Assembly (NCBI GenBank): GCA_943736015.1
Contig: OX031057.1
Coordinates: 60,904,001 to 60,968,000, forward strand
Reading direction: 5' to 3'
DNA from: Tridacna crocea
Taxonomy: Eukaryota > Mollusca > Bivalvia > Cardiida > Cardiidae
DNA: 64,000 nt
Shown piece after piece: positions 17,083 through 57,915 of the stretch. The notes beneath the pieces were generated by a model. It worked only from the letters and a program-made list of their open reading frames with translations, was not told the origin of the DNA and did not search any database. A program made the translations under genes and the position numbers. Positions within the stretch are counted from its first letter, which is position 1. Every line of letters starts with the position of its first letter.

Positions 17083-18391
17083 AACAAGAGGGCCATGATG
17101 GCCCTGTATCGCTCCACTGGCTAATTTGTAAAAACACTACAAGCCAAACATTACATTATTTGGCCAACTGGTTTCAAACTTGAGGGCATACAGTTTTTTT
17201 CCCATAACAACCTACAAAAAAGTTGTGACCCCTGGGCAAATCCAATTTTGACCACAAAGCTATAATTACTTGAATCCTGGTGGAGGTCTACAAGATAAAG
17301 CCCCATATCAAATAATACAGGTCTAGAATGTGTGGTTATAAACAAGAAGATTTTCAAAGTTTTCTTAATAAAAGGCCTGTAAAACATAAAATCCATGAGA
17401 CAGGGCTAAATTTAGTGGTCCTAGTCTTTATCATGGTTAGTAACAAGATGACTCAGAAAGTTTTCACCACAAAAGCCCATGTAAAACTTATAACCCCTGG
17501 TGTGGGGATAAACTTGACCCTAAGGCTATAATTTGGGCCCTCCTGGTAGAGGCCCACTAGATAAAGCTACATGCAAAATTTGATAGCCCTAGGCCTTATG
17601 GCTAGGTACAAGTAGATTTTTAAAAAATTCCCAATATGAGCCCATGTAAAACTTGTGACCCCCAGGACAGGGCCAAATTTGACCCCAGGGCTACAATTTG
17701 GGCACATTTGGTAGACAACCACTTGATAAAGCTAGATGCAAAATTGAGTAGCCCTGGGCCTTATGGCTTGGTACGAAAAGATTTTTAAAGTTTTCACTAT
17801 ATAAGCCCATATAAAACTTGTGACCCCCGGGGCCGGGCCAAATTTGACCTCTGGGCTATCATTTGGGCACTCTGGGTAGAGGTCTACTAGATAAAGCTAC
17901 ATGCCAAATTTGGTAGCCCTAGGCCCTATGGCTAGGTACCAGAAAGATTTTAAAGTTTTCCCTATATAAGCCCATATAAAACTTGTGACCCCCGGGGTGG
18001 GGCCAATTTTGACCCCAGGGCTATTATTTGAAGGAACTTGGTAGAGGTCCACTAGATAAAGCTACATGCCAAATTTGGTAGCTCTAGGCCTTATGGTTTC
18101 AGAGAAGAAGATTTTTAAAAATTTTCAATATTTTTCAGTTTTGTTGCCATGGCAACCAGAGTTTTTGAAGGAATAAAATTCTTTCAAGGAATTCTGAAGA
18201 GGACCATGGCAGGATCATTTCTGTGAATTTTCATCAAAATTGGATGGGTAGTTTCAGAGAAGAAGATGTTTGAAATAAAAGTTAACGCACGCACGGACGG
18301 ATGGACGCACGCACGCACAGACGGACGGACGGACGCACGACGGACACCGGGCCATGACATAAGCCGGCTGGCCTTCGGCCAGTGGAGCTAA
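17083..18391 (+). mobile_element. Helitron-like element copy B
   Basis: The 5' hairpin AGGGCCATGATGGCCCT is followed by GCTCCACTGGC. The 3' end has the hairpin CTGGCCTTCGGCCAG overlapping GCCAGTGGAGC and ending CTAA. Inside are about six ~145-bp units (17200-18120, anchor 'AAAACTTGTGACCCC'), the X-box at 18143 and a (GACG/GCAC)n tract at 18290-18345. Confidence 0.78.
18143..18156. promoter_or_regulatory. X-box (RFX-type) palindrome
   Basis: GTTGCCATGGCAAC inside helitron-like copy B, just before the conserved 3' domain. Confidence 0.6.
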
Positions 18392-27728: not shown

Positions 27729-28187
27729 CGATTCTAACATGGCCAATTCGTAATGAAAGGAAAACAAGTTCAAACTAAGAGTAAAAACGCGGATGAAGAT
27801 TATGTTCCATTGAATAACTCACTCATTGAATGACGTCACTCGATATAGGATGACGTCACTCTACATAGATTGTCGCAGATTTTACCACGTTTTCCTTGCA
27901 CTGTGTTTATAGAGCCAAAGTCGCGTGTCATGTTAGAATTAACTTTTTACATGAACTGTGTACATGTACCTATACCATATTCGACAGATTTTCTTTTCTT
28001 CAATTGTAGTGAAGAAAGTTTAGAAACTGCAGCAGTTTCTGGGTAGGGTAGGAAAACCCTATAGAGCAACGGCGGGTATTATCGACACTTTAAGAGATCG
28101 GAAAGTGTGGTGTCGATAACAGCCGCTTTAAATACAAACTGAAGTTATCAGTGGTTTATTTTGCGGATACTCTACTGATCTACGATA

Positions 28188-28245
28188 AAATCAAGCGTTC
28201 TCCCAATAAGCTTCTCCCAATAAGAACAATAACGGTAACTCTGTA
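28188..28245 (+). repeat. Left inner inverted repeat of the satellite block
   Basis: 58 bp. The inverted partner at 44416-44473 differs by a single base (CTTCTCCC against CTTTTCCC). Confidence 0.9.
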
Positions 28246-28659
28246 TAGACTGTAAATGGACAAATCGGCCCATAACTATTTCGACCCACAACAAAACCAG
28301 TGCGTACGGCTTTCGGCATACAGTTTCATGGAAACAATAGTATGCTTACTATTTCTGCATGGTATTTGTCAAGCTTTACGCTAAGGTTGTAAGTCCGCAG
28401 TTAAAGACAAAAATCTAGGATAATTTATTTAATTTAGTCTGAAAGTGTGTGTGAATACATAGGTATTACGACACCTACCAATATCGCCCATAACTACCCA
28501 TAAAATGCAAATTTTGCAGTAGTTATCGTTTTTAACTCTGCCCAGAAGCTTCAGAGGAACAAAACCTGCTGTCATAGGTATGTTTATTATTAATATTATT
28601 ATTTCTATCTGTGATACAACACTACAAATAATTGAAATGACTCTCTAAGGCTCCTATAT

Positions 28660-28905
28660 GGCTTGCTACATGGGAAAAAGAACATTCGGACATTTACGTA
28701 AAGTGTCGTCTCGGATCAGCCTGCGCAGGCTAATCCGAGACGGCACTTTCCGTTATAGTGCAATTTTCTGTTTTGCGCATGTCTATTGTAGCACAAAATC
28801 TAATGTAGTCGTAAAGTGCCGTCTCGGATTAGCCTGCACGGACTGCGCAGGCTGATCCGAGACGACACTTTACGCAGATGTCCGAATGTCCCTTTTCACG
28901 TGTTG
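28660..28905. mobile_element. Foldback repeat containing two nested palindromes
   Basis: The outer arms AACATTCGGACAT / ATGTCCGAATGT enclose two internal palindromes, each built on GTCTCGGAT(C/T)AGCCTGCGCAGGCT-type sequence (28703-28750 and 28808-28874). The same GCGCAGGCT motif is scattered through bivalve repeats. Confidence 0.8.
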
Positions 28906-29109
28906 CACACCATATGCGGATTATATCACTTACTGTAATAGCCCAAAATTCACAATAGCCTGTCACTGGAAAGTCCCTTTTTCTTACCGTCAGTGATGCA
29001 ATATTAAAATACATAAATTGGCATAAAACAATCTCCGGTCGGACTTTTTCAGAGGAGTACTGACAGTGACACCTACCCTTATCGCTCAATATTAACTGTA
29101 GTTTGCATG

Positions 29110-29661
29110 GTTAAGTATTAAAATAAAGTTAAGTGGGGCATTACCACTTGAAAATTGTTGCTCGATTAATTAAAACAATAAGCTTTAGTTGGGCAGTACC
29201 TTGAGACACAAATTTTGTTTTTGATTGCTTCATTTTTCTGTCCCCAAAGAACATGACAAATATGACGTTATAATTGACTGACACTCTAGTGCCCCTTTAG
29301 TGGGATTGTGACACCTTAGCATAGAGGCTATTCTTTACAGAGGTTATCGCTGATTATCAAACAATGAGATTCTGTGGGGCAGTACCATCAGACAAAGGAT
29401 TTTGTTTTGTTTTCCATTCCTGAGGAAACAAGGCAGCTTTAACATACTTATTGACCAGCCCCTTTAGGGCCCCTTCATTGGGATTGTGACATCTACTCCT
29501 ACACCCCTTTTTTTGCAGTGGATATCAAGGATAGAAAATGCACTAAGAATGAGTGGGGCAGTACCACCAGACACAGGATTTTTCTTATGTCTTTTTGTCA
29601 TTGAGGCAAAAAAAGCATGTTTGATGTTATTGTTGATTGACCCCTCTTTGGCCCATTTATT
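29110..29661 (+). repeat. Left edge of the satellite array, diverged monomers
   Basis: Three monomers recognisable by 'GGGATTGTGACA(C/T)CT' and 'GTGGGGCAGTACCA' but more different from the core. Isolated 'GACACCTACC' traces at about 28470 and 29070 suggest older remnants further left. Confidence 0.75.
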
Positions 29662-32600
29662 GGGATTGTGACACCTACCCCTGTGGTCTATTTTTTACAG
29701 TGGACATTGAGGATAATAAAAACAATAAGCCTTAGTGGGGCAGTACCATCAGACACGATATTTTTTTTTTTCTTTTTTCATCTAAGCGGTAAAATCACAG
29801 ATAAAACGTAATTATTGACCGACCTCTCTGAAGCCCCTTTCCAGGGATTGTGACACCAACCAATACAGTTTTTTATTTACAGTGTATATCAGGCATAAAA
29901 AATATACTAAGCTTAATTGGGGCAGTACCACTAGACACGGGATTTTTTTCCTTTGTGTCTGCATTCATGAGGCAACAAGACATCTTTAACATACTTATTG
30001 ACCAGCCCCTTTAGGGCCCCTTTCATAGGATTGTGACACCTACTCTTATACCCCATTTGTTAGAGTGGATATCAGGGATAACAAATGCAATAAGATTGAA
30101 TGGGGCAGTACCACCAGACATAGGAATTTTTTTTTTATGTCTTTTTGTCATTGAGGCAAAATAGCAAATTTGATGTTATTATTGATTGACCCCACTTTGG
30201 CCCATTTATTGGGATTGTGACACCTACCCCTGTAGTCCATTATTTACAGTGGACATTAAGGATAATAAAAATAAGAAGCCTTAGTGGGGCAGTACCATCA
30301 GACACAATATTTTTTTTTCTTTTTCAATCCCAGTGGAAAAATCACAGATAAAACATAATTATTGAACTACCCCTCCAAAGCCCCTTTTAAGGGATTGTGA
30401 CACCAACCCATACAGATTTTTATTTACAGTGTATATCAGGGATAAAAAATATACTAAGCTTAATTGGGGCAGTACCACCAGATACAGGATTTGTTTTTCC
30501 TTTGTTTCTGCATTCATGAGGCAACAAGACAAATTTAACATACTTATTGACCAGCCCCTTCAGGGCCCCTTTACTGGGATTGTGACACCTACTCCTATAC
30601 CCTATTTTTTACAGTGCATATCAGGGATAACAAATGCAATAAAATTGAGTGGGGCAGTACCACCATACATAGGAAGTTTCTTATGTCTTTTTATCACTGA
30701 GGCAGTTTCTTATGTCTTTTTGTCATTGAGGCAAAATAGCAAATTTGATATTATTATAGATTGACCCCTCTTTGGCCCATTTAATGGGATTGTGACACCT
30801 ACCCCTGTAGTCCATTATGTAGAGTGGATAGTGAGGATGATAAAAACAATAAGCTCTAGTGGGGCAGTGCCATCAGACACAATAATTTTTTTTTTGTAAT
30901 CCCAGCGGTAAAATCACAGATAAAACATAATTATTGACCGACCCCTCTGAAGCCCCTTTTCAGGGATTGTGACACCAACCCATACAGGTTTTTATTTACA
31001 GTGTATATCAGGGATGAAAAATATACTAAGCATATTTGGGGCAGTACCACCAGACACAGAATTTTTTTTTCTTTGTTTCTGCATTCTTGAGGCAACAAGA
31101 CAAATTTGACATACTTATTGACCAGCCCCTTTAGGGCCCCTTCATTTGAATTGTGACACCTACTCCTATACCCCATTTTTTAGAGTGGATATCAGGGAAA
31201 ACAAGTGCAATAAGATTGAGTGGGGCAGTACCACCAAACATAGGAACTTTCTTATGTCTTTTTGTCATTGAGGCAAAATAGCAAATTTGATGTTATTATT
31301 GATTAACCCGTCTTTGGCCCATTTATTGGGATTGTGACACCTACCCCTGCAGTCCATCATTTACAGTGGACATTAAGAATAATAAAAATAATAAGCTTCA
31401 GTGGGGCAGTACCATCAGACACAATATTTTTTTTTCTTATTCAATCCCAGCGGTGAAATCACAGAAAAAACATAATTATTGACCGACCCCTCTGAAGCCC
31501 CTTTTAAGGGATTGTGACACCAACCAATACAGTTTTTTTTTTTACAGTGTATATCAGGGATGAAAAATATACTAAGCTTAATTGGGGCAGTACCACCAGA
31601 TACAGGATTTTTTTCCTTTGTTTCTGCATTTATAAGGCAACAAGGCAAATTTAACATACTTATTGACCAGCCCCTTTAGGGCCCCTTTATTGGGATTGTG
31701 GCACCTACTCTTATACCCCATTTTTTAGAGTGGATATCAGGGATAACAAATGCAATTAGGTTGAGTGGGGCAGTACCACCAGACATAGGAAGTTTCTTAT
31801 GTCTTTTTGTCACTGAGGCAAAATAGCAAATTTGATGTTATCATCGATTGACCCCTCTTTGGCCCATTTATTGGGATTGTGACACCTACCCCTGTAGTCC
31901 ATTTTTTACAGTGGACATTGAGGATAATAAAAACAATAAGCCTTAGTGGGGCAGTACCATAAGACACAATTTTTTTTTTCTTTTTCAATCCAAGTGGAAA
32001 AATCACAGATAAAACATAATTATTGACCGACCCCTCTAATACCCCTTTTTCTGGGATTGTGACACCAACCCATACAGTTTTTTTTTACAGTGTATATCAG
32101 GGATAAAAAATAAACTAAGCTTAATTGGGGCAGTACCACCAGATACAGGATTTTGTTTCCTTTGTTTCTGCATTCATGAGGCAACAAGACAAATTTAACA
32201 TGCTTATTGACCAGCCCCTTCAGGGCCCCTTTACTGGGATTGTGACACCTACTCCTATACCCTATTTTTTACAGTGCATATCAGGGATAACAAATGCAAT
32301 AAAATTGAGTGGGGCAGTACCACCATACATAGGAAGTTTCTTATGTCTTTTTATCACTGAGGCAAAATAGCAAATTTGATGTTATCATTGATTGACCCCT
32401 CTTTGGCTCATTTAATGGGATTGTGACACCTACCCCTGTAGTCCATTTTGTACAGTGGACATTTAGGATAATAAAGACAATAAGCTCTAGTGGGGCAGTA
32501 CCATAAAACACAATTTTTTTTTCTTTTTCAATCCAAGAGGTAAAATCCCAGATAAAACGTGATTATTAACCGACCCCTCTAAAGCCCCATTTCAGGGATT

Positions 32601-35600
32601 GTGACATCAACCCATACAGTTTTTTATAAACAGTGCATATCAGGGATAAAAAATATACTAAACTTAAATGGGGCAGTACCACCAGACACAGCATTTTTCC
32701 CCCTTTGTTTCTACATTCATGGGGCAACAAGACAAATTTAACATACTTATTGACCAGCCCCTTTAGAGCCTCTTCATTGGATTTGTGACACCTACTCCTT
32801 TACCCCATTTTTTAGAGTGGATATCAGGGATAACAAATCCAATAAGACTGAGTGGGGCAGTACCACCAGACATAGGAACTTTCTTATTTTTTTTTGTCAT
32901 TGAGGCAAAATAGCAAATTTGATGTTATTATTGATTGACCCCTCTTTGGCCCATTTATTGGGATTGTGACGCCTACCCCTGTAGTCCATTTTTTACAGTG
33001 GACATTGACGATAATAAAAATAATAGGCTTTTGTGGGGCAGTAACATCAGACACAATATTTTTTTTCTTTTACAATCCCAGCGATAAAATCACAAATAAA
33101 ATATAATTATTGACTGACCCCTTTAAAGCCCCTTTTAAGGGATTGTGACACCAACCCATACAGTTTTTTATGTACAGCGGATATCAGGGATAAAAAATAT
33201 ACTAAGCTTAATTGGGGCAGTACCACTAGACACAGTTTTTTTTCCCTTTGTTTCTGCATTCATGAGGCAACCAGACAAATTTAACATACCTATTGACCAT
33301 CCCCTTCAGGGCCCCTTCATTGGGATTGTGACACCTACTCTTATATCCCATTTTTTAGAGTGGATATCAGGGATAACAAATGCAATAAGATTGAGTGGGG
33401 CAGAACCACCAGACATAGGAATTTTCTTATGTCTTCTTGTCATTGAGGCAAAATAGCAAATTTGATATTAATATTGATTGACCCCTCTTTTGGCCCATTC
33501 ATTGGGATTGTGACGCCTACCCCTGTAGTCCATTTTTTACATTGGACATTTAGGATGATAAAGACAATAAGCCTTAGTGGGGCAGTACCATAAAACACAA
33601 TTTTTTTTCTTTTTCAATCCAAGAGGTAAAATCCCAGATAAAACATAATTATTGACCGACCCCTCTAAAGGTGCCTTTTAAGGGATTGTGACACCAACCC
33701 ATGCAGTTTTCTATTTACGGTTTATATCAGGGATAAAAAATATACTAAGCTTAATTGGGGCAGTACCACCAGATACAGATTTTTTCCCCTTGGTTTCTGC
33801 ATTCATGAGGCAACAAGACAAATTAAACATACTTTTTGACCAGCCCCTTTAGGGCCCCTTCATTGGGATTGTGACACCTACTCCTATACCCCATTTTTTA
33901 GAGTGGATATCAGGGATAACAAATGCAATAAGATTGAGTGGGGCAGTACCACCAGACATAGGAAGTTTCTTATGTCTTTTTGTCATTGAGGCAAAAATAG
34001 GAAATTTGATGTTATTATTGATTGACCCCTCTTTGGCCCATTTATTGGGATTGTGACAACTACCCCTGTAGTCTACTTTTTACAGTGGACATTGACAATA
34101 ATAAAAACAATAAGCCTTAGTGGGGCAGTACCATAAGACACAACATTTTTTTTCTTTTTCAATCCCAGCGTTAAAATCACAGATGAAACGTAATTATTGA
34201 CCGACCCCTCTAAAGCCCCTTTACAGGGATTGTGACACCAACCCATATAGTTTTTTATGTACAGTGGATATCAGGGATGAAAAATATACTAAGCTTAATT
34301 GGGGCAGTACCACCAGATACAGGATTTTTTTTCCTTTGTTTCTGCATTCATGAGGCATCAAGACAAATTTAACGTACTTATTGACCAGCCCCTTTAGGGC
34401 CCCTTCATTGGGATTGTGACACCTACTCCTATACCCCATTTTTTAGAGTGCATATCAGGGATAACAAAAGCAATAAGATTTAGTGGGGCAGTACCACCAG
34501 ATATAGGAATTTTCTTATGTCTTTTTGTCATTGAGGCAAAATAGCAAATTTGATATTATTATTGATTGACCCCTCTTTGGCCCATTTATTGGGATTGTGA
34601 CACTTACCCCTGTAGTCCATTTTTTACAGTGGACATTGAGGATAATAAAAATAATAGGCTTTTGTGGGGCAGTACCATCAGACAAAATTTTTTTTTCTTT
34701 TACAATCCCAGCGATAAAATCACAAAAAAAAAACATAATTATTGACTGACCCCTTTAAAGCCCCTTTTAAGGGATTGTGACACCAACCCATACAGTTTTT
34801 TATGTACAGTGGATATCAGGGATGAAAAATATACTAAGCTTAATTAGGGCAGTACCACCAGACACAGTTTTTTTTCCCCTTTGTTTCTGCATTCATGAGG
34901 CAACCAGACAAATTTAACATACTTATTGACCAGCCCCTTTTGGGCCCCTTTTTTGATATTGTGACACCTACTCTTATATCCCATTTTTTGGAGTGGATAT
35001 CAGGGATAACAAATCCAATAAGACTGAGTGGGGCAGTACCACCAGATATAGGAATTTTCTTATGTCTTTTTGTCATTGAGGCAAAATAGCAAATTTGATG
35101 TTATTATTGATTGACCCCTCTTTGGCCCATTTATTGGGATTGTGATACTTACCCCTGTAGTCCATTATTTACAGTGGACATTGAGGATAATAAAAATAAG
35201 AAGCCTTAGTGGGGCAGTACCATCAGACAAAAATTTTTTTTTTTTCTTTTACAATCCTAGCGATAAAATCACAAATAAAACATAATTATTGACCGACCCC
35301 TCTAAAGCCCCTTTTAAGGGATTGTGACACCAACCCATACAGTTTTTCATGTACAGTGGATATCAGGGATGAAAAATAAACTAAGCTTAATCGGGGCAGT
35401 ACCACCAGATACAGGATTTTTTTCCCTTTGTTTCTGCATTTATGAGGCAACAAGACAAATTTAACATACTTATTGACCAGCCCCTTAAGGGCCCCTTCAT
35501 TGGGATTGTGACACCTACTCAAACACCTCATTTTTTAGAGTGCATATCTGGGATAACAAAAGCAAAAAGATTGAGTGGGGCAGTACCACCAGACATAGGA

Positions 35601-38600
35601 ATTTTCTTCGGTCTTTTTGTCATTGAGGCAAAATAGCAAATTTGATATTATTATTGATTGACCCCTCTTTGGCCCATTTCTTGGGATTGTGACACTTACC
35701 CCTGTAGTCCATTGTTTACAGTGGACATTGAGGATAATAAAAACATTAAGCCTTAGTGGGGCAGTACCATCAGACACAATATCTTTTTTTCTTTTTCAAT
35801 CCAAGCGGAAACAATCGCAGATAAAACATAATTATTGACCAACCCCTCTGAAGCCCCTTTTAAGGGATTGTGACACCAACCCATAAAGATTTTTATTTAC
35901 AGTGTATATCAGGGATAAAAAATATATTAAGGGTAATTGGGGCTGTACCACCAGACACAGGATTTTTTCCCTTTGTTTCTGGATTTGTGTGGCAACAAGA
36001 CAAATTTAACATACTTATTGCCCAGCCCCTTCAGGGCCCCTTGATTGGGATTGTGACACCTACACCTATACCCCATTTTTTAAAGTGTGTATCAGGGATA
36101 ACAAATCCAATAAGACTGAGTGGGGCAGTACCACCAAACATAGGAATTTTCTTATGTCTTTTTGTCATTGAGGCAAAATAGTAAAATTTGATGTTATTAT
36201 TGATTGACCCCTTTTTGGCCCAATTATTGGGATTGTGACACCTACCCCTGTAGTCTATTATTAAAAGTGGGCATTGACGATAATATAAACAATAAGCCTT
36301 AGTGGGGCAGTACCATAAGACACAATATTTTTTTTTTCTTTTTCAGTCCCAGCTGTAAAATCACAGATGAAACGTAATTATTGACCGACCCCTCTAAAGC
36401 CTCTTTTAAGGGATTGTGACACCAACCCATACAGTTTTTTATTTACAGTGTATATCAGGGATGAAAAATATACTAAGCCTAATTGGGGCAGCACCACCAG
36501 ATACAGGATTTGTTTTTCCTTTGTTTCTGCATTCATGAGGCAACAAGACAAATTTAACGTACTTATTGACCAGCCCCTTCAGGGCCCCTTCATTGGGATT
36601 GTGACACCTACTCCTATACCCCATGTTTTAGAGTGGATATCAAGGATAACAAATGCAATAAGATTGAGTGGGGCAGTACCACCAGATATAGGAATTTTCT
36701 TATGTCTTTTTGTCATTGAGGCAAAAAAGCAAATTTGATGTTATTCTTGATTGACCCCTCTTTGGCCCATTTCTTGGGATTGTGACACCTACCCCTGTAG
36801 TCCATTGTTTACAGTGGACATTGAGGATAATAAAAACAATAACCCTTAGTTGGGCACTACCATAAGATACAATATTTTTTTTTTCTTTTTCAATCCCAGC
36901 AGAAAAAATCGCAGATAAAACATAATATTTGACCAACCCCTCTGAAGCCCCTTTTAAAGATTTTTATTTACAGTGTTAATCAGAGATGAAAAATATACTA
37001 AGCGTAATTGGGGCAGTACCACCAGATACAGGATTTTTTTCCCTTTGTTTCTGCATTCATGAGGCAACTAGACAAATTTAACATACTTATTGACCAGCCC
37101 CTTTAGGGCCCCTTCATTGGGATTGTGACATCTACTCCTACACCCCATTTTTTGCAGTGGATATCAGGGATAGCAAATGCATTAAGAATGAGTGGGGCAG
37201 TACCTGAGTACCACCAGACACAGGATTTTTCTTATGTCTTTTTGTCATTGAGGCAAAAATAGCATGTTTGATGTTATTGTTCATTGATCCCTCTTTTGCC
37301 CTTTTATTGGGATTGTGACACCTACCCCTGTAGTCCATTATTAACAGTGGACATTGAGGATAATAAAAACAATAAGCCTTAGTGGGGCACAGTACCATAA
37401 GACACAATTTTTTTTTTCTTTTTCAATCCCAGAGGTAAAATCACAGAAAAAACGTCATTATTGACCGACCCCTCTGAAGCCCCTTTCCAGGGATTGTGAC
37501 ACCAACCAATACAGTTTTTTATTTACAGTGTATATCAGGCATAAAGATATACTAAGCTTGATTGGGGCAGTACCACCAGATATAGGATTTTTTTTTTCCT
37601 TTGTTTCTGCATTCATGAGGCAACAAGACAAATTTAACGTACTTATTGACCAGCCCTGTAGTACCACCTGATTGGGATTGTGACACCTCCTCCTATACCC
37701 CATTTTTTAGAGTGGATATCAGGGATAACAAATGCAATGTATCTTTTTGTCACTGAGGCAAAAATAGCAGGTTTGATGTTATTATTGATTGACCCCTCTT
37801 TGGCCCATTTAAATGGATTGTGACACCTACCACTGTTGTCCATTATGTACAGTTGATAGTGAGGATGATAAAAACAATAAGCTTTTGTGGGGCGGTACCA
37901 TTAGACACAATTTTTTTTTTCTTTTTTTAATCCCAGTGGTAAAATCACAACGTAATTATTGACCAACCCTTTTAAAGCCCCTTTTAAGGGATTGTGACAC
38001 CAACCCATACAATTTTTTATTTACAGTGTATATCAGGGATAAAAAATATACTAAGCTTAATTGGGGCAGTACTACCAGATACAGGATTTTTTTCCCCTTT
38101 GTTTCTGCATTCATGAGGCAACTAAACAAAATTTACATACTTATTGACCAACCCCTTCAGGGCCCCTTCATTGGGATTGTGACACCTACTCCTATACCCC
38201 ATTTATTAGAGTGGGTATCAGGGATAACAAATGCAATAAGATTGAGTGGGGCAGTACCACCAGACATAGGAATTTTCTTATGTCTTTTTGTCATTGAAGC
38301 AAAATAGCAAATTTGATGTTATTATTGGTTGACCCCTCTTTGGCCCATTTATTGGGATTGTGACACCTACCCCTGTAGTCTATTATTTACAGTGGACATT
38401 TAGGATAATAAAAACAATAAGCCTTAGTGGGGCAGTACCATAAGACACAATATTTCTTTTTTCTTTTTCAATCCCAGCCGTAAAATCACAGATGAAAAGT
38501 TATTATTGACCGACCCCTCTGAAGCCCCTTAACATGGATTGTGACACCAACCCATACAGTCTTTTATTTACAGTGTTCATCAGGGATAAAAAATATACTA

Positions 38601-41080
38601 AGCTTAATTGGGGCAGTACCACCAGATACAGGATTTGTTTTTCCTTTGTTTCTGCATTTATGAGGCAACAAGACAAATTTAACATACTTATTCACCAGCC
38701 CCTTTAGGGCCCCTTTATTTGAATTGTGACACCTACTCCTATACCCCATTTTTTAGAGTGCATATCAGGGATAACAAAAGCAATAAGATTGAGTGGGGCA
38801 GTACCACCAAACATAGGAATTTTCTTATGCCTTTTTGTCATTGAGGCAAAATAGCAAATTTGATGTTATTATTGATTGACCCTTCTTTGGCCCATTTCTT
38901 GAGATTGTGACACCTACCCCTATAGTCCATTGTTTACAGTGGATACTGAGGATAATAAAAACAATAAGCCTTAGTGGGGCAGTACCATCAGACACAATAT
39001 CTTATTTTCTTTTTCAATCCAAGCGGAAAAAATCGCAGAAAAAACATAATTATTGACCAACCCCTCTGAAGCCCCTTTTAAGGGATTGTGACACCAACCC
39101 ATTAAAATTTTTAATTACAGTGTATATCAGGGATAAAAAATATACTAAGGGTAATTGTGGCAGTACCACCAGACACAGGATTTTTTTTCCCTTTGTTTCT
39201 GCATTCATGAGGCAACAACACAAATTTAACATACTTATTGACCAACCCCTTCAGGGCCCCTTCATTGGGATTGTGACACCTACTCCTATACCCCATTTTT
39301 TAGAGTGGGTATCAGGGATAACAAATGCAATGAGACTGAGTGGGGCATACCACCAAACATAGGAATTTTCTCATGTCTTTTTGTCATTGAGGCAAAATAG
39401 CAAATTTGATGTTATTATTGATTGACCCCTTTTTGGCCCATTTATTGGGATTGTGACACCTACCCCTGTAGTCTATTATTAAAAGAGGGCATTGACGATA
39501 ATATAAACAATAAGCCTTAGTGGGGCAGTACCATAAGACACAATATTTTTTTTCTTTTTCAATCGCAGCGGTAAACTCACAGATGAAACGTAATTATTGA
39601 CCGACCCCTCTAAAGCCTCTTTTAAGGGATTGTGACACCAACCCATACAGTTTTTTATGAACAGTGGATATCAGGGATAAAAAATATACCAAACTTAATT
39701 AGGGCAGTACCACCAGATACAGGATTTGTTTTTCCTTTGTTTCTGCATTCATGAGGCAACAAGACAAATTTAACGTACTTATTGACCAGACCCTACAGGG
39801 CCCCTTCATTGGGATTGTGACACCTACTCCTGTACCCCATGTTTTAGAGTGCATATCAGGGATAACAAATGCAATAAGATTGAGTGGGGCAGTACCACCA
39901 GATATAGGAATTTTCTTATGTCTTTTTGTCATTGAGGCAAAATAGCAAATTTGATGTTATTATTGATTGACCCCTCTTTGGCCCATTTCTTGGGATTGTG
40001 ACACCTACCCCTGTAGTCTGTTATTTACAGTGGACATTGACGATAATAAAAACAATAAGCCTTAGTGGGGTAGTACCATAAGACACAATTTTTTTTTTCT
40101 TTTTCAATCCCAGCGGTAAACTCACAGATGAAACGTAATTATTGACCGACCCCTCTAAAGCCCCTTTACAGGGATTGTGACACCAACCCATACAGTTTTT
40201 TATTTACAGTGGATATCAGGGATAAAAAATATACTAAGCTTATTTGGGGCAGTACCACCAGACACAGGATTTTTTCCCCTTAGTTTCCGCATTCATAAGG
40301 CAACAAGACAAATTGAACATACTTATTGACTAGCCCCTTTACGACCTATTCATTGGGATTGTGACACCTTTTCCTATAAATCATTTTTTTGAGTGGATAT
40401 TAGGGAAAACAAATGCAATAAGATTAAGTGGGGCAGTACCACTAGACTCAGGAATTTTCTTCGGTCTTTTTGTCATTGAGGCAAAATAGCAAATTTGATG
40501 TTATTATTGATTGACCCCTCTTTGGCCCATTTATTGGGATTGTGACACCTACCCCTATAGTTTATTATTTATAGTAGATATTGAGGATAATAAAAACAAA
40601 AAGCTTCAGTGGGGCAGTACCATAAGACACAATTTTTTTTTTCTTTTTCAATCCCAGCGGTAAAATCACAGATGAAACATAATTATTGACCAACCCCTCT
40701 TAAGCCTCTTTTAAGGGATTGTGACACCAACCCATACAGTTTTTTATGAACAGTGGATATCAGAGATAAAAAATATACTAAGCTTAATTGGGGCTGTACC
40801 ACCAGACACAGAATATTTTTTCCTTTGTTGCTGCATTCCTCAGGCAACAAGACAAATTTAACGTACTAATTGACCAGCCCCTTTGGGGCCCCTTTATTCG
40901 GATTGTGACACCTACTCCTATACCCAATTATTTACAGGAGATATCAAGCATAACACTTGCAATAAGACTGAGTGGGGCAGTACCACAAAGCACAGAACTT
41001 TTCTTACATCTGTTTGTCATTGAGACAAAAGTAACTAATTTGATGTTATTATTGATGGACCCCTCTTTGGACCATTTATT
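29662..41080 (+). repeat. Higher-order satellite core: ~21 x ~545 bp, each of three ~181-bp monomers
   Basis: Monomer type 1 carries CCCCTGTAGTCCATT and GGACATTGAGGATAATAAAA. Type 2 carries CCAACCCATACAG and GTATATCAGGGATAAAAAAT. Type 3 carries CTCCTATACCCCATTTTTTA and GATAACAAATGCAATAAGA. The order 1-2-3 repeats. Type-1 starts fall at 29662, 30211, 30786, 31328, 31873, 32417, 32960, 33504, 34047, 34591, 35136, 35683, 36229, 36776, 37309, 37814, 38354, 38901, 39447, 39992, 40536 and 41081. Exceptions to the ~545 spacing are a 575-bp block with a local duplication near 30690 and a 505-bp block near 37700. Every monomer shares GGGATTGTGACACC, GTGGGGCAGTACCA and a poly-T tract. Confidence 0.95.
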
Positions 41081-42775
41081 GGGATTGTGACACCTACCCC
41101 TGTAGTCCACTATTTACAGTGGATAGTGAGGATAATAAAAACAATAAGCTTTAGTGGGGCAGTACCATCAGACACAACATTTTTTTCCTTCTTTACTGCA
41201 TTCCTGAGGCTACAACACAAATTTAACATACTTATTGACCTGCCCCTCTTGGACCCCTTCATTGTGTCAACCGCCCCTATTATCCATTATTTTCAGTGGA
41301 TATCAAGGATAATAAAAGCAATAAGATTGGGTGGGGCAGTACCACCAGACACAGGATTTTTCTTAAATTTCCAATATACTTCAGGAAAAAATAACAAATT
41401 TGATGCTGTTAATGAGGAAACCCTCTTGGGCCAATTTATTGGGATTGTGACACCTACCCCATTTGTGCATTGTGTACAGTGGATATTGGAGATTATAAAA
41501 GCAATAACCTTCAGTGGGGCTGTGCCACCAGACACATTCTTTTTTTCTTCTCTTTTTATCCATAAGATAAAATCACAAATAAATGGTAATTATTGACAAT
41601 CCCTTCTGCAGTCCCTTTTAAGGGATTGTGACACCTACCTTAACAGCTTTTAATTTACAATGCATATCAGGGATAATAAAAATAATGAGCTGCAGTGGAG
41701 CAGTACCACCAGACACAATTTTTTTTAAGTTTCTTTTTCTGAAGGAATTATTAGACATTCAACATAAACATTTGCCGACCCCTCTGGAGCCCCTTTATTG
41801 AGATTTGTGGCACCTACCACTAAAGCTAATTATATACAGTACCTATTAATGATTATCAAAACAGTAAGCATCATTGGGGCAGTACCACAAGACACACAAA
41901 ATTTCTTCTTGACCTATCCCTTAGGGACCCAATTTATTGGGATTGTGACATCTATCTTTGAAGCCTCTTAATTGCAGTAGATATCAAAGGTAATAAAAAC
42001 AGTAAGTTTTATTTGGGAAGTACCACCAGACACATGAATTTGTTTTGTTTTCTATCCCTGTGGAAATTTGCAAATACATGTAAAGCGTTATCATTCACCT
42101 AACCCTATTGAGCCCCTTTACTGGGATTGTGACTCCTAACCCTATGGCTTATTATATACAGTAGATATTAGTGATAATCAAAACAGTAAGTTTTTGTGGG
42201 GCAGTATCACAAGCACACAGACTTCGGTTTTTCAAAGTCTGGGAAAAAGTCACAAATATGACCTTATTATTTATACTGACCCCTCAGGAACCCAAGCATT
42301 GGGATTGTTACACCTACCCCAAGCCCATTACTTACATCATAGAAACAAGAAGCTTTGAACAGTGGGGAAGTACCACCAGATACATACTTTTTTTTCTCTT
42401 TTGTTCTGTTTGTTTTTTTCCCAAAATTTCAAATATGACATTATTGTTGAACTTCTCTTAAGGCCCATTCATTGGGCAGTCACACATCCCCTTTAGGCCA
42501 TTATTTACAGTGGGTATCAGAGATAATATACAATGTGCTTTAATGCAGCAATCCCACCAGACCACACTGGATGTTTTTTTCATGTATAAGGCAAAAGTAG
42601 AAATACATGTATGACACAATTATTGCTCAACCTTTTTTGAGGCCCTTTATTTAGGTTGTGACACCTAACCCTATAGAATAATTTTTAATATGCATATCAG
42701 GGGCAAAAACAGTGAACTGTACTGGGGCAGTACCAGTGTTCACAGGAATAATTTTGTCTTTTAACCTCTGAGGCA
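41081..42775 (+). repeat. Right edge of the satellite array: diverged monomers without 1-2-3 order
   Basis: About nine monomers, still with GGGATTGTGACxCCTA and GGGGCAGTACCAC anchors but increasingly different, with variable lengths (about 150-185 bp). Confidence 0.85.
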
Positions 42776-42834
42776 ATATTACCTTTATTAAAATTTGTGG
42801 TCAGTAGCAAAGAAACATTGTCTTTCCGGGTCTG

Positions 42835-43220
42835 TACATACAAAGGTAGTTGGGAATCCAGGCATGCATGCAAACAAGCAGGCAGGCAGGAAAGCAGATC
42901 AGTGAGTTATAGGTTAGTTAGTTGGTATGTAGGTAGGTTTGCCTATAGGTAGTAGACAGATTGGTAGAAAGGTAGGTTGGTTGGTAGGTTGTTGGATAGG
43001 TATGTAGGCCTAGGTTGGTCATTTGATAGGTAAGTAGGTTGTTGGTTGGTATATCAGTTGATAGGTCATACATGTAGATAGGTAGGTAGGTAGGTTGTGT
43101 GATATGTATATCAGTAGGTTTGTCGGAAGATAGGTTGATCGGGTGACAGATAGATAGGTTGGTACATGTAGGTAGGTTTTAGGTTGAGAGTTAACAGGTA
43201 AATAGGTTGTCAATTTCTTG
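42835..43220. repeat. (GTAGGTAGGTTG)-like simple repeat
   Basis: ~380 bp of imperfect TAGG/GGTTGGTA units interrupting the decayed satellite monomers. Confidence 0.85.
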
Positions 43221-43284
43221 GCCTTTTGGAAGGTCTTTAGTTAGTTGTTTTTTTCCCCCCCATTTTATTGATTGAAACAACCTG

Positions 43285-43690
43285 TCCAGGGCACTCAATG
43301 TATTCTGTGACATCTATCCTAATGCCCAATTTTCATAGAATAGGTGTTATGATAGGTAGATCTATTACAAATGATGGGTCAATGTCTCAAGTCATCAATG
43401 TTTGCTCTTTCAAAGGAGTTACATTAATCTACAAATTATAGGCCTGCATTTAACCAACCCTCTGGAACCTCCTATTTATGCTCATTACAAACACTATCAA
43501 TGGTGCAATACCTCATGTTAATAATTTAGCAGATTTACAATGAAATGACTCAGGTTGAGACCATTGATGGGGATTGTGACCCCTACCCTTGTAGCCTAGT
43601 TTGTAAAGTAGGTATCCTGCAGAATTGTGCTAATAACCTTTGGTGGGACAGTGCCTACAATTATAGTAGATTCTTCTTTTTTTTCTTTTG
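43285..43690 (+). repeat. Outlying decayed satellite monomers
   Basis: 'TTCTGTGACATCTATCCTAATGCCC' (about 43300) and 'GGGGATTGTGACCCCTACCC' with 'GGTGGGACAGTGCC' (about 43570-43655) are the last recognisable monomers. Confidence 0.65.
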
Positions 43691-43705
43691 TGCAAAATAA
43701 CAATC

Positions 43706-43912
43706 AGCCCTTTACCACCTTACAAAATTTTAGACTAATCCATATTGAAAGCATCTGAAGAGGAGAAACTTTGACTTAAATGCTGAGATTTGTTTTTGAA
43801 TAAGTAGAAAACATTGTGTGAATGATGGTTACTAGCATTTTCTCCTTTTCACACATTGTTTTCCTCTTTTCTTCATTAAGTTAAGACTTGGGATTGTGTG
43901 ATAAAGGGTTAA
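43706..43912 (-). mobile_element. TTAA palindromic MITE
   Basis: The right TTAA is at 43909-43912; the left end is decayed (CAGCCCTTTACCACCTTAC). The hairpin is shortened in the left arm. Confidence 0.78.
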
Positions 43913-44415
43913 CATAATGATATCAAGCTAACCGTTCTAGGGCCTTTCTATAATGAGTGTGACATCAGCAGATCTCTTGAAGATGACGTCATGACAACGT
44001 CACACGCTCCGAATGTGGCCTTGTAGGGAAAGAATTTATTTGAAATTTGATTAACATATTAATTGTTTACTTTCAGAGGTTCGTGTTTTATACAGTTTTC
44101 GAAAACATGCATTTCAACTAAACTCGATGTATATTCGACATAAATGTATAGGAAAGAGCCTATTTACCGGTATTCTCAACTCTGTTCCTTGATAAGAATC
44201 ACTGCAGCAGATCTATCCACAATATTAAATCCATTCAACCATTCTCTTCTATAAATAGCTTGGTGTAAAACATTGTAGTGCAGGAGTAAATAAAATATAG
44301 GCAAATTAACTCATTACAGCACTCTTACCTTTTCAAAATTGTGACCAAAATCGCCGTTTGCAGATTTTATTGAGTGTCGAACTGATCCTGGGTCGAATAG
44401 TCCAATGATCGTCAA
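43913..44415. other. Inside of block, right side, nothing recognised
   Basis: No exon or repeat recognised between the last MITE and the inner inverted repeat. Confidence 0.4.
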
Positions 44416-44473
44416 TACAGAGTTACCGTTATTGTTCTTATTGGGAAAAGCTTATTGGGAGAACGCTTGATTT
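44416..44473 (-). repeat. Right inner inverted repeat of the satellite block
   Basis: Complement of 28188-28245 with one mismatch. Confidence 0.9.
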
Positions 44474-45354
44474 CGGTCTGATCTACACGTATAATATAAT
44501 GGTGTAAAGTTGCGTATTGTAGCAAACAACGCCAACATTACATAAGGGTATGTCGGGCGATATCGACAGGCTTCGTCTATTATCGACATTGTATTTAATT
44601 TTCAAGAATTTAACATCAAAATTCTCTTTTAACTCATCATTATGGGTTTTATTTAGTACTCGTTGCCGAATTAGATCTAATACAAAGCAATTAAATCAAA
44701 ACTTGACGCGTAACATAGGTACAACCGCAAAAGAAGGCCGAACAGGTACACGTTGGTAATATCATGGACTAAGATGTCTGGACATTGCACCACTGCGCAC
44801 CATTTCTATGGCCTATGACATGTTATTTGACGAGTATTGACCTCGTTTTGGAGTTTTCAAGCCAACATTTGTCTGGACATAGCTGTAACCCTAAAGATAA
44901 AAAGAAATTGAGGCTACATAAAACATATTAATTCTTATTTCTTTTATTCATGTCTTAATCTGTCGATAATTGCCGATCACACAAATTAGCATCGCCAGTC
45001 ATCGACACATGAATAAGTTGCCTTATGGTGAGCAAAACACGCTCAATTTTGTGATGCGAACACTATTTTACATCTGAAACTCGTATTTAAGTTTGAATTC
45101 AAGCAATCGAGCACGTTTCAGGACACCCTTCACGCTGACAAAAACCACCACCCTCCTTATCGTAGCCGTTAACGTTGGGTAATTTCATTACTGTAAAATT
45201 TCACTGACTCTTTGGCACTTACAGAGTACTGTTTACTTCCGGCCCTGTGATTAGATAAAATATTGATGTCGTATTTTACATCATAAAAATGAAATTTGTT
45301 CATCTTTCATGGAATTAAAGGACACAATAAAGAATTGACGATAACTGCCGACGG
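44474..45354. other. Right flank of block with repeated ATCGAC motifs
   Basis: No gene. TATCGACA-type motifs occur at about 44560, 44578, 44952 (inverted) and 45000. The palindrome TGCCGACGGTCGGCA lies at 45346-45360, next to the outer inverted repeat. The left flank has the same motif at 28079 and inverted at 28114. Confidence 0.5.
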
Positions 45355-45432
45355 TCGGCAATACCCGACGTTGCTCTACACAGATATCTTTTTTAGGCGC
45401 AAATCTGGAATTTCTTCACGAGGTCGAAACTC

Positions 45433-56159: not shown

Positions 56160-57915
56160 TTAGCTCACCTGAGCACGAAGTGCTCATGGTGAGCTATTGT
56201 GATCGTGCTGTGTCCGGCGTCCGTCGTCCGTCGTGCGTCGTGCGTCGTCCGTCGTCAACTTTTTACCTTGTGTACGCTCTACAGGCCACAGTTTTGGTCG
56301 GATACTCATGAAAGTTGGTCAGGATGTTTTTCTCGATGAAATCTCGGACGAGTTCGAAAATGGGTCATGTGGGGTCAAAAACTAGGTCACTAGGTCAAAT
56401 CTTAGAAAAACCTTGTGTACGCTCTAGAGGCCGCATTTTTAGTCGGATACTCATGAAAGTTGGTCAGGATGTTTGTCTCGATGATATCTCGGACGAGTTC
56501 GAAAATGGGTCACGTGGGGTCAAAAACTAGGTCACTAGGTCAAATCTTAGAAAAACCTTGTGTACGCTCTAGAGGCCGCATTTTCAGTCCGATACTCATG
56601 AAAGTTGGTCAGGATGTTTGTCTCGATGATATCTCGGACGAGTTCGAAAATGGGTCACGTGGGGTCAAAAACTAGGTCACCAGGTCAAATCTTAGAAAAA
56701 CCTTGTGTACGCTCTAGAGGCCGCATTTTCAGTCGGATACTCATGAAAGTTGGTCAGGATGTTTGTCTGGATGATATCTCGGACGAGTTCGAAAGTGGGT
56801 CACGTGGGGTCAAAAACTAGGTCACCAGGTCAAATCTTAGAAAAACCTTTTGTATGCTCTAGAGGCCACATTTTCAGTCGGATACTCATGAAAGTTGGTC
56901 AGGATGTTTGTCTGGATGATATCTCGGACGAGTTCGAAAATGGGTCACGTGGGGTCAAAAACTAGGTCACCAGGTCAAATCTCAGAAAAACCTTTTGTAC
57001 GCTCTAGAGGCCACATTTTCAGTCGGATACTCATGAAAGTTGGTCAGGATGTTTGCCTGGATGATATCTCGGACAAGAACGAAAATGGGTCACGTGGGGT
57101 CAAAAACTAGGTCACTAGGTCAAATGTTAGAAAAACCTTTTGTAGGCTCTAGAGGCCACATTTTCAGTCCGAAACTCTTGTTAGTTGGTCAGAATGTTTG
57201 TCTTAATGATATCTCAGACAGGTTTGAAAATGGGTCATTGGGGGTTAAAAACTAGGTCACCAGGTCAAATCTTAGAAAAACCTTTTGTATGCTCTGGATG
57301 CCACATTTTCAGTCCAACACTCTTGAAAATTAGTCAGAATGTTTGCCTTTATAATATCTTGGATGAGTTTGAAAATGGGTCATGTTAGGTCAAAAACTGG
57401 GTCAATAGGTCAAATGTTATAAACACCTTTTGTATGCTCTGGAGGACACATTTTCAGTCTGATACTCCTAAAACTTGTTCATAATATTTGTCCTGGTGAT
57501 ACCTTGAATGAGTTTGAAAATGGGTCATGTGGAGTCAAAAACTAGGTCAATGGGTCAAATATTAGAAAAACCTTGTGTACACTCCAGAGGCTACATTTTC
57601 TGCCTGATACTCTTCAGACTTGGTCAGAATGTTTGTTTTGGTGATGTCTCAAAAGAGTTTGATAATGGGTATTTGTCGGGTCCAAAACTAGGTCACTTGA
57701 TGAAATCTTAGAAAAACCTTTTGTACACTGTAGAGGCCACATTTTCAGTCCAATACTCATGAAACTTGGCCAGAATGTTTGTCTTATTGATATCTCAAAA
57801 GTGTTTGATGATGGGTAATGTCTGATAAAAAAACTAGGTCACTGGGAAACTAGATGGTGCATGTTTGGTCAATAAACTCAGGTGAGCGATTTCAGGGCCA
57901 TCATGGCCCTCTTGT
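56160..57915 (-). mobile_element. Helitron-like element copy C with 145-bp minisatellite
   Basis: On the minus strand the 5' hairpin AGGGCCATGATGGCCCT is followed by CGCTCACCTGAG. The 3' end has the hairpin TGAGCACTTCGTGCTCA overlapping CTCAGGTGAGC and ending CTAA. It lies in the intron between two exons of the decayed gene. A (GTCC/GTGC)n tract at 56215-56260 equals the (GACG)n tract of copies A and B. Confidence 0.78.
56285..57840 (+). repeat. 145-bp minisatellite, ~10-11 units
   Basis: Exact 145-bp spacing from 56315 through 57185 (anchor GTTGGTCAGGATGTTTGTCT). The first six units are nearly identical; later ones diverge steadily towards 57840. 145 is not a multiple of 3, so the repeated short ORFs are not a protein repeat. 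Confidence 0.92.

Follow-up and report, generated by a model that had tools for sequence, protein, structure and literature searches.

The window, a stretch of 64,000 nucleotides from Tridacna crocea contig OX031057.1 (positions 60,904,001 to 60,968,000 of the forward strand; assembly GCA_943736015.1), carries an array of ~181-bp satellite monomers between two terminal inverted repeats (TIRs), and the whole is bounded by the perfect 9-bp target duplication CTGATCTAC. The coordinates of all features are listed in Table 1. The TIRs were aligned by BLAST with an E value of 4e-30; read inward, the ends consist of GATA or ACCG followed by AAATCAAGCGTTCTCCCAATAAG. A preliminary description of the locus had noticed a 58-bp inverted repeat with one mismatch, which is real and corresponds to the outer 58 bp of the TIRs. 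It had also estimated ~75 monomers, in agreement with the 75 monomer anchors that were counted within the element on one strand, against 0 on the other. Stop-to-stop frames in the element region were at most 185 aa long and recurred with the array. Three other arrays in the window are adjoined by a GGAC/GTCC-type microsatellite.

Table 1. Features of the satellite-carrying element and its insertion site (positions in the window).
Feature	Position	Strand	Remarks
Left 122 bp of interrupted host MITE	28062..28183	+	TAGAGCAACG... end; includes left copy of the target duplication
Left target site duplication	28175..28183	+	CTGATCTAC
Whole satellite-carrying transposon	28184..44477	+	16,294 bp, GATAAAATCAAGCG...CGCTTGATTTCGGT
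Left TIR	28188..28296	+	109 nt, 84% to right TIR; preceded by 4 non-inverted terminal bases, GATA
Left degenerate edge of satellite array	28462..29272	+	Monomer anchors 28462, 29060
256-bp fold-back insertion within element	28656..28911	.	ATATG at both borders; missing from C1:23.27M copy
Satellite array proper	29273..41896	+	~181-bp monomers, 3-monomer higher-order repeat (~545 bp); TRF
Right degenerate edge of array	41897..43588	+	Anchors 41939, 42123, 42301, 42652, 43570; AGGTAGGT-rich stretch
Right TIR	44365..44473	-	Followed by 4 non-inverted terminal bases, CGGT
Right target site duplication	44478..44486	+	CTGATCTAC
Right 901 bp of interrupted host MITE	44478..45378	+	Terminates ...CGTTGCTCTA

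The interval 28184-44477 is very probably one copy of a non-autonomous DNA transposon with a satellite array of trimeric higher-order structure inside. The sequence evidence for this assignment comprises the exact ends, the TIRs, the 9-bp duplication of the target and the empty site. In addition, the genome has 26 two-ended copies, array length varies between copies, and the searched satellite words are nearly confined to them.

The preliminary description had placed the ends of the element further out, at 28062 and 45380, where it had seen a second inverted repeat of ~25 bp. This outer repeat is real: 28062-28086 matches, over 25 bp with 3 mismatches, the reverse-complemented stretch whose last position is 45378 (rather than 45380), and its score of 35 lies above the maximum of 30 obtained among 500 single-base shuffles. 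However, its arms are the termini of a MITE of 1,014 bp, for which the genome has 189 candidate places. In other genome copies 28062-28183 is joined directly to 44478-45378, and the MITE was uninterrupted at six of the seven other loci from the first genome search (L003-L008). When the element and one duplication were removed, the flanks in the window amounted to 1,014 bp with 94.5-99.1% identity to the six intact MITEs (gapless in five of them; 99.1% for the two closest). This alignment of the joined flanks to intact MITE copies without the array provides the empty site and indicates that the satellite element jumped into the MITE. An element comprising the whole 17.3-kb interval 28062-45378 would agree with an outer repeat above chance level, but it is refuted by the intact MITEs, which have this repeat at their two ends and no array inside, and by a second satellite copy, on C4, which has the inner ends without the outer ones. 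Since the outer repeat belongs to the host MITE, the element is taken to span 28184-44477; the array had been recognized correctly as the cargo of one element with ends set too far out, and the target duplication that had been sought at the outer ends is found at the inner ones. The TATCGAC motifs reported for both flanks are present (28080, 44561 and 44581 on the forward strand, 28112 and 44962 on the reverse strand; three more elsewhere in the window), but these five are located inside the interrupted MITE and are not part of the satellite element.

The element was found at ~30 places in the genome and its ends could be paired into the 26 two-ended copies, which have a unit size of 8.5-19 kb where they are not enlarged by other sequence. 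A TIR 21-mer searched with up to two mismatches yielded 63 matches against 0 for the reversed control; 50 of the 63 belong to two-ended copies and 10 to lone ends, and 3 lie elsewhere. A further copy of full length, at C4:61134055-61150361, aligns with the window copy from end to end at 98.0% identity over 16,219 sites and has its own target duplication, TTCAAGGTC. Perfect target duplications were present in 20 of the 26 two-ended copies (19 of 9 bp and one of 10 bp), compared with 0 of 240 in a control with mispaired flanks from 16 flank pairs, in which the best match was 8/9. Six copies are without a perfect duplication: C13a matches at 8 of 9 positions, a level also reached by one mispaired flank, C7a and C7b have flanks that match crosswise only, the flank duplications of C9 and C15a do not match, and C16b, the right flank of which was not readable, was counted among them.

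The satellite itself was almost confined to the element. One monomer 25-mer had 58 exact matches, 51 of them inside two-ended copies, 7 on the matching strand no more than 50 kb from a lone end, and 0 elsewhere; for a 20-mer, all 20 matches likewise fell inside copies or at most 50 kb from a lone end. The same was true of 98 of the 100 matches listed, out of 422, for another monomer 25-mer, the other two being at C7:17.07 Mb, away from all copies. The satellite located in the assembled sequence would lie almost entirely inside element copies, and the long stand-alone arrays of a classical satellite were not seen among the listed word matches in the assembled sequence. An origin of the copies by segmental duplication, or by recombination between stand-alone satellite arrays, would be in keeping with two pairs of left flanks (L020/L021 and L034/L035) that were duplicated along with the element. 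These are two of 325 pairs among 26 left flanks, of which 23 belong to two-ended copies and 3 to lone ends, and the remaining pairs are dissimilar up to the junction. Together with the exact ends, the perfect duplications and the fact that only two listed matches lie away from any element end, this makes such an origin very improbable compared with transposition, and for the window copy it is refuted by the empty site.

The copies share their ends and differ in monomer number, an outcome that the preliminary description had proposed to look for: the copy at C1:23.27M has 51 anchors, compared with 75 and 76 in the other two copies read whole. When 12 other copies were compared with the C4 copy, four differed by approximately whole multiples of 545 bp (-544, -1086, -2166 and -2716) and eight by lengths other than whole trimers. 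In the mechanism that we propose, a transposase supplied in trans would bind the element ends and move the whole unit, a 9-bp staggered cut would be made at the target, and repair of the donor site would increase the copy number. The array would move as a unit and could later gain or lose ~545-bp trimers via unequal exchange or slippage.

Three outsized two-ended copies measured 42, 70 and 115 kb. Capture of host DNA was considered for these and set aside, as nested insertions are the simpler reading. Twenty 1-kb samples were taken, 12 from the C15 copy and 8 from the C13 copy; four were wholly or mostly element (L072, L081, L084 and L086), three overlapped the element by 98-192 bases, and the remaining 13 did not overlap it. 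By eye, a 333-aa frame (L087) looks like a candidate Polinton-type DNA polymerase; a Pfam search returned no match for it. In the C12 copy, ~104 kb splits the right TIR. At C7:8119845-8248616 (128.8 kb), two copies of the same orientation are separated by 82 kb, and one outer 9-bp duplication, GGGAAAACA, is common to the unit. Both edges of the intervening DNA are ~99% identical to C1. On the right, homology to C1 ends at the inner junction exactly at the end of the element, which C1 lacks at this position. Movement as a macrotransposon would fit both outer ends at C7:8.12-8.25 Mb and one of the inner junctions. Four samples from the interior of the interval had no match in the two C1 stretches at the expected offsets, apart from L113, which matched via a common repeat. 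Among the 40 candidates scored, of 1,323, in a genome search, the only full-length match of L111 was the sample itself, on C7; the others were short repeat matches, none of which lay in the C1 stretch; L112 is a repeat with ~20 copies at 96-100% in the genome search. That the genome contains this higher-order-repeat satellite almost only as transposon cargo, and that its carrier is in addition mobile as a macrotransposon, is a combined proposal that we advance with reserve.

The 9-bp duplication and the length of the TIRs suggest that the element is a non-autonomous Mutator-like element (MULE), an assignment that we moderately favour. Duplications of 9 bp, with one of 10 bp, and TIRs of ~110 bp are typical of Mutator-like elements. 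The 8-10-bp (usually 9-bp) duplication was found as a perfect 9-bp one in 19 of 26 copies and as a perfect 10-bp one in one, and the window copy has long TIRs, apart from 4 non-inverted bases at each extremity. MULE transposase domains occur at 61 places in the genome. A transposase with these ends was not found by searches with the TIR 21-mer at two and three mismatches and by a MULE domain search, in which one of the 61 places was read; at three mismatches, the 21-mer had 3 further matches, compared with 7 in the reversed control, and no further TIR pair. The one copy that was read (L109) represents the commonest MULE group, to which 18 of the 61 matches belong with an identical score. It encodes a FLYWCH+MULE ORF and has TIRs made of GGACGTTTTGGCCA repeats, which are unrelated to those of the satellite element, and by end similarity this group was rejected as the autonomous partner. 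The lack of a matching transposase in these searches and the different terminal bases of the two ends (GATA and CGGT) would also suit a TIR transposon with a 9-bp duplication outside the Mutator-like group, such as a Merlin-like one or a member of an undescribed superfamily. Against the Mutator-like duplication and TIR pattern and the 61 domain places, this is the less favoured reading, though still a plausible one. An argument from 8-10-bp duplications to Mutator is likewise made for Tetris (PMC4079207).

It has long been asked how satellites spread through euchromatin and colonize further chromosomes. The case described here is an array of dozens of monomers, organized in higher-order repeats, that very probably moved whole and whose length varies between copies, in some by whole trimers. 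As a single genome offers 26 arrays with both element ends, array turnover becomes measurable copy by copy. The findings suggest that Helentrons are not the only vehicles of satellite dispersal in bivalve-type genomes.

Bivalves are known to have transposons with satellite cargo, mainly Helentrons, and the present element is a variant among them with TIRs and a 9-bp target duplication. To our knowledge, Helitrons make no 9-bp target duplications. The kinship with pearl and Helentron elements that the preliminary description had suggested is contradicted by the true TIRs and the 9-bp duplication, which form a Mutator-like pattern. A Helentron or pearl-type element of the Cg_HINE type with rolling-circle movement would share the general plan of conserved ends around central ~180-bp tandem repeats, which is known in bivalves (PMC7492417); the AGGTAGGT-rich stretch at the right array edge also speaks for it. 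Such an element is nevertheless highly improbable in view of the TIRs and of perfect 9-bp duplications, which 19 of the 26 copies have; moreover, TRF listed no microsatellite in the interval from the left end to the array, and neither a subTIR nor a palindrome was seen by eye. The non-autonomous Cg_HINE/pearl Helentrons of bivalves (PMC7492417, PMC8268682) resemble the Tridacna element in being dispersed, with ~165-180-bp satellite repeats in the middle and arrays of variable size. The longest mobile-element-associated CgiSat01 array has 89 monomers (PMC8268682), so that size alone is not new. They differ in their subterminal inverted repeats, microsatellite and 3' palindrome and in a mean of 3.6 monomers per array in the 13 clusters (PMC7492417), whereas the Tridacna element has TIRs at its ends, the 9-bp duplication, 51, 75 and 76 anchors in the three fully read copies, and higher-order trimers. 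Tetris, a fold-back element of Drosophila virilis that its authors put in Mutator, is likewise non-autonomous, with 8-10-bp duplications, changing tandem repeat number and no conserved ORF (PMC4079207). Tetris, however, is described there with a few ~220-bp repeats within long inverted TIRs, and also as a source of satellite arrays; here, a direct-orientation array of dozens of monomers (75 anchors against 0 by strand) lies between arms of 109 nt, and only two listed matches were away from element ends. The Xenopus MITE miDNA4, as outlined in the review PMC12628747, is also a TIR element with a satellite core of variable monomer number; it is of the Tc1/mariner type, in contrast to the 8.5-19 kb element with 9-bp duplications described here.

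The array had been proposed to be the cargo of a single element bounded by two nested inverted repeats (28062-45380), for which empty alleles, target duplications and copies with the same ends and other monomer numbers were expected. Both inverted repeats are present around the array and each exceeds chance. The genome (1,048,827,098 bases, 31 contigs; the window is C2:60904001-60968000) was searched with 28062-28300, and with 40 of 189 candidate places scored the window and seven other loci were returned. At six of the seven (L003-L008), 28060-28183 is fused directly to 44478-45378, forming an uninterrupted MITE of 1,014 bp (1,012 bp in L008) with the ends TAGAGCAACG. The seventh, L002, on the opposite strand, shows this junction in slightly altered form and was left out of the comparison. 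When the window flanks were joined without 28184-44486, a 1,014-bp sequence resulted that was 96.1, 99.1, 94.5, 99.1, 97.7 and 96.2% identical to L003-L008, with a gapless alignment in five of the six. The MITE is thus rebuilt from the flanks: it was interrupted by the insertion of a 16,294-bp unit, and the 9-bp CTGATCTAC on either side of the unit is its target duplication. Judged from these alignments, the intact MITE loci represent the empty site of the window copy. The host MITE is young. The outer 25-bp repeat belongs to this target and is not an element end; the array as cargo of one element holds for the inner-repeat unit and fails for the wider outline.

Repeats and elements in the window, with the candidate macrotransposon
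Feature	Location	Size	Remarks
Satellite element (window copy)	28184-44477	16,294 bp	array of ~181-bp monomers
Inner inverted repeat	28188-28296 / 44365-44473	109 nt	84%
Outer inverted repeat	28062 / 45378	25 bp	3 mismatches
Fold-back insertion in window copy	28656-28911	256 bp	
Small element	7355-8147		inverted tandem ends (GGACAAAACCCCCCTA repeats)
Unit with inverted tandem-repeat ends	11624-13178	~1.5 kb	AAGGGGCTTTTGACCGCC type
145-165-bp array	14085-15389		GGAC/GTCC-type microsatellite beside or near
145-165-bp array	17473-18345		GGAC/GTCC-type microsatellite beside or near
145-165-bp array	56212-57796		GGAC/GTCC-type microsatellite beside or near
Candidate macrotransposon	G000:C7:8119845-8248616	~129 kb	two elements and 82 kb between; L031, L034, L061, L098, L107, L111-L114

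On comparison between copies, the inner inverted repeat is the terminus of the element. A copy on C4 aligns with the window copy from first to last base, at 98.0% identity over 16,219 sites (0.958-0.995 per kb, with a drop to 0.915 near 34.2-35.2 kb), and is flanked on both sides by TTCAAGGTC. Searches with the left and right ends gave 43 and 42 matches, with 40 of 63 and 40 of 66 candidates scored. With up to two mismatches allowed, a 21-mer of the TIR had 63 matches genome-wide and its reversed control 0; 50 of the matches belong to copies with both ends paired and 10 to lone ends, leaving 3 at other places. Ends were paired by hand and by script, which yielded 26 two-ended copies and left 8 ends without a partner. 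The expected target duplications were present at the ends of the inner-repeat element and were perfect in 20/26 copies (9 bp in 19, 10 bp in one). The duplication of C13a matches at 8/9 positions, the flanks of C9 and C15a have no matching duplication, C16b has a rearranged right end with an unreadable right flank, and the flanks of C7a and C7b match crosswise only. Mispairing of 16 flank pairs gave 0/240 perfect matches (best 8/9), and no target-site consensus was visible among 16 target duplications. Similarity of left flanks up to the junction was seen in 2/325 pairs (26 left flanks, 23 from two-ended copies and 3 from lone ends), which look like duplications in which the element was copied along with its flank. 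In the first 470 bp, the distance to the nearest relative was 0.2-1.1% for 20 of the 26 left ends, two of these close pairs being the apparent flank duplications just mentioned; the remaining six lay 1.5-6% away, with C15b at 25%, apparently because an insertion disturbs its alignment. The low divergence points to recent activity of the element.

The ~75 monomers proposed as cargo were borne out by 75 monomer anchors on one strand and 0 on the other, mostly ~181 bp apart from 28462 to 43570. Among 65 clean monomers, mean identity was 0.85, 0.84, 0.83 and 0.83 at lags 3, 6, 9 and 12 and 0.70-0.73 at the remaining lags up to 11, which indicates a 3-monomer higher-order repeat (trimer, ~545 bp). 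Right-edge monomers were less like the rest (0.67-0.71), and the right 3.0 kb of the copy at C1:23.27 Mb was 97.9% identical to that of the window copy. Since the degenerate edge is alike in both, we infer that array and edge predated the spread of these copies and travelled as a unit. Stop-to-stop frames in the element were up to 185 aa long and recurred with the array.

Monomer numbers differ between copies with the same ends, as expected of an element: the whole C1:23.27-Mb copy has 51 anchors, against 75 in the window and 76 on C4, retains the trimer spacing and lacks the fold-back insertion. Two-ended copies with a perfect duplication measured 8.5-19.1 kb, apart from three of 42, 70 and 115 kb. 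In 20 1-kb samples of the 42- and 70-kb copies, 4 consisted entirely or largely of element sequence and 16 entirely or largely of other DNA. One sample from the 42-kb copy (L087, C13:8713001-8714000) holds a 333-aa open frame that by eye resembled a Polinton-type DNA polymerase and had no match in Pfam. Four of 12 copies (15,763, 15,221, 14,141 and 13,591 bp) differed in length from the C4 copy by 1.0, 1.99, 3.97 and 4.98 times 545 bp; the other eight differed by other than whole trimers, possibly due to other insertions.

An exact monomer 25-mer had 58 matches genome-wide. Of these, 51 fell within two-ended copies and the other 7 on the agreeing strand no more than 50 kb from a lone end, with 0 elsewhere; the spans concerned make up 0.084% of the genome. 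All 20 exact matches of a 20-base satellite word fell in two-ended copies. Another 25-mer, at up to one mismatch, had 422 matches; among the first 100, the ones listed, 91 were inside copies, 7 by a lone end and 2 outside (C7:17,070,332 and 17,070,866). These counts cover assembled sequence and little-diverged monomers.

Neither of two like-oriented copies on C7 (C7b and C7a) has matching flanks of its own. A perfect 9-bp pair, GGGAAAACA, is instead formed by the left flank of C7b with the right flank of C7a, 128,772 bp apart. Just outside the inner left end, 1,500 bp align at 98.9% with the flank of C1b, whose own duplication, TTGATATCA, is intact. The DNA beyond the inner right end matches C1 ~50 kb further (99% over 401 bp; 98.9% over 284 bp that overlap these). 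The similarity ends exactly at the base preceding the element, and C1 has no element at this point. The pattern fits a candidate macrotransposon, in which two elements would have moved together with the sequence they enclose. The edges of that sequence both match C1:45.84-45.89 Mb. Against this reading, the sampled middle does not match: at the offsets where C1 should correspond, interior samples have no counterpart, and for L111 none lies in the C1 stretch. L112 proved to be a multicopy repeat, and the length of the interval differs, at 82 kb on C7 and ~51 kb on C1.

Insertion sites were also compared by eye over ~20 bp of flank. Loci L013, L027, L093 and L099 (C11:14.86 Mb, C2:31.58 Mb, C15:4.56 Mb) share one target sequence; the C11 and C2 copies occupy the identical spot in opposite orientations, and on C15 that spot holds ~41 bp of the left TIR alone, which might be an excision remnant. 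Another repeat, with ends GGCACAAGTAAACAG / GTAGCAGTACAC, was seen by eye inside the TIR at L104, L097, L094, L095 and L100 (C12, C15, C7), adjoining CAATAAG or GCTTA words at five places, as if the TIR were its favoured target; on C12 its two ends are ~104 kb apart.

From the directly observed ends, TIRs, duplications, empty site, copies and length differences, a mechanism may be proposed in which a transposase supplied in trans would act on the TIRs, the entire unit, array included, would be transferred, copy number would rise by repair, and trimers would afterwards be gained or lost by unequal exchange. Duplications of 9 bp and TIRs of ~109 bp are in keeping with a Mutator-like element. A MULE transposase domain was found at 61 places, the largest group being 18 matches with one common score. 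One of these 18, L109 (G000:C5:63819001-63823000), has an ORF with FLYWCH and MULE domains and TIRs of ~14-bp tandem repeats, unlike the satellite element's ends; 3.5 copies of a 155-bp repeat lie downstream of this ORF. No further elements with the satellite element's TIRs were found, three mismatches adding 3 matches against 7 in the reversed control, so the driver would be lost, diverged or among the other MULE loci.

Elsewhere in the window, the small element has a MULE-like pattern and the 9-bp direct repeat CGATTAATC at its flanks; as this came from a scan of ~90 x 90 positions, the probability of a chance match is ~3%. Some way outside the ~1.5-kb unit lies a 9-bp repeat, ACCATTTAC, possibly by chance. 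The three 145-165-bp arrays with their microsatellite are arranged like the published Cg_HINE Helentrons, and the window may therefore contain carriers of both types.

Bivalve satellites on mobile elements are reported as established, in oysters chiefly on Helitrons/Helentrons (PMC11136912). Array size alone is not new, since arrays of up to 29.3 monomers (mean 3.6 over 13 clusters; PMC7492417) and an element-associated CgiSat01 array of 89, the longest, are reported (PMC8268682). The C7 candidate resembles Ac in maize, for which transposition of two elements with the intervening DNA is described (PMC9910405). Among the open-licence papers listed by literature searches, titles and abstract openings pointed to no Mutator-like element carrying a long satellite array apart from Tetris, the nearest Mutator-type case (PMC4079207). 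Unlike the satellite element, Tetris is described as carrying a few repeats, and these lie inside its TIRs (PMC4079207).
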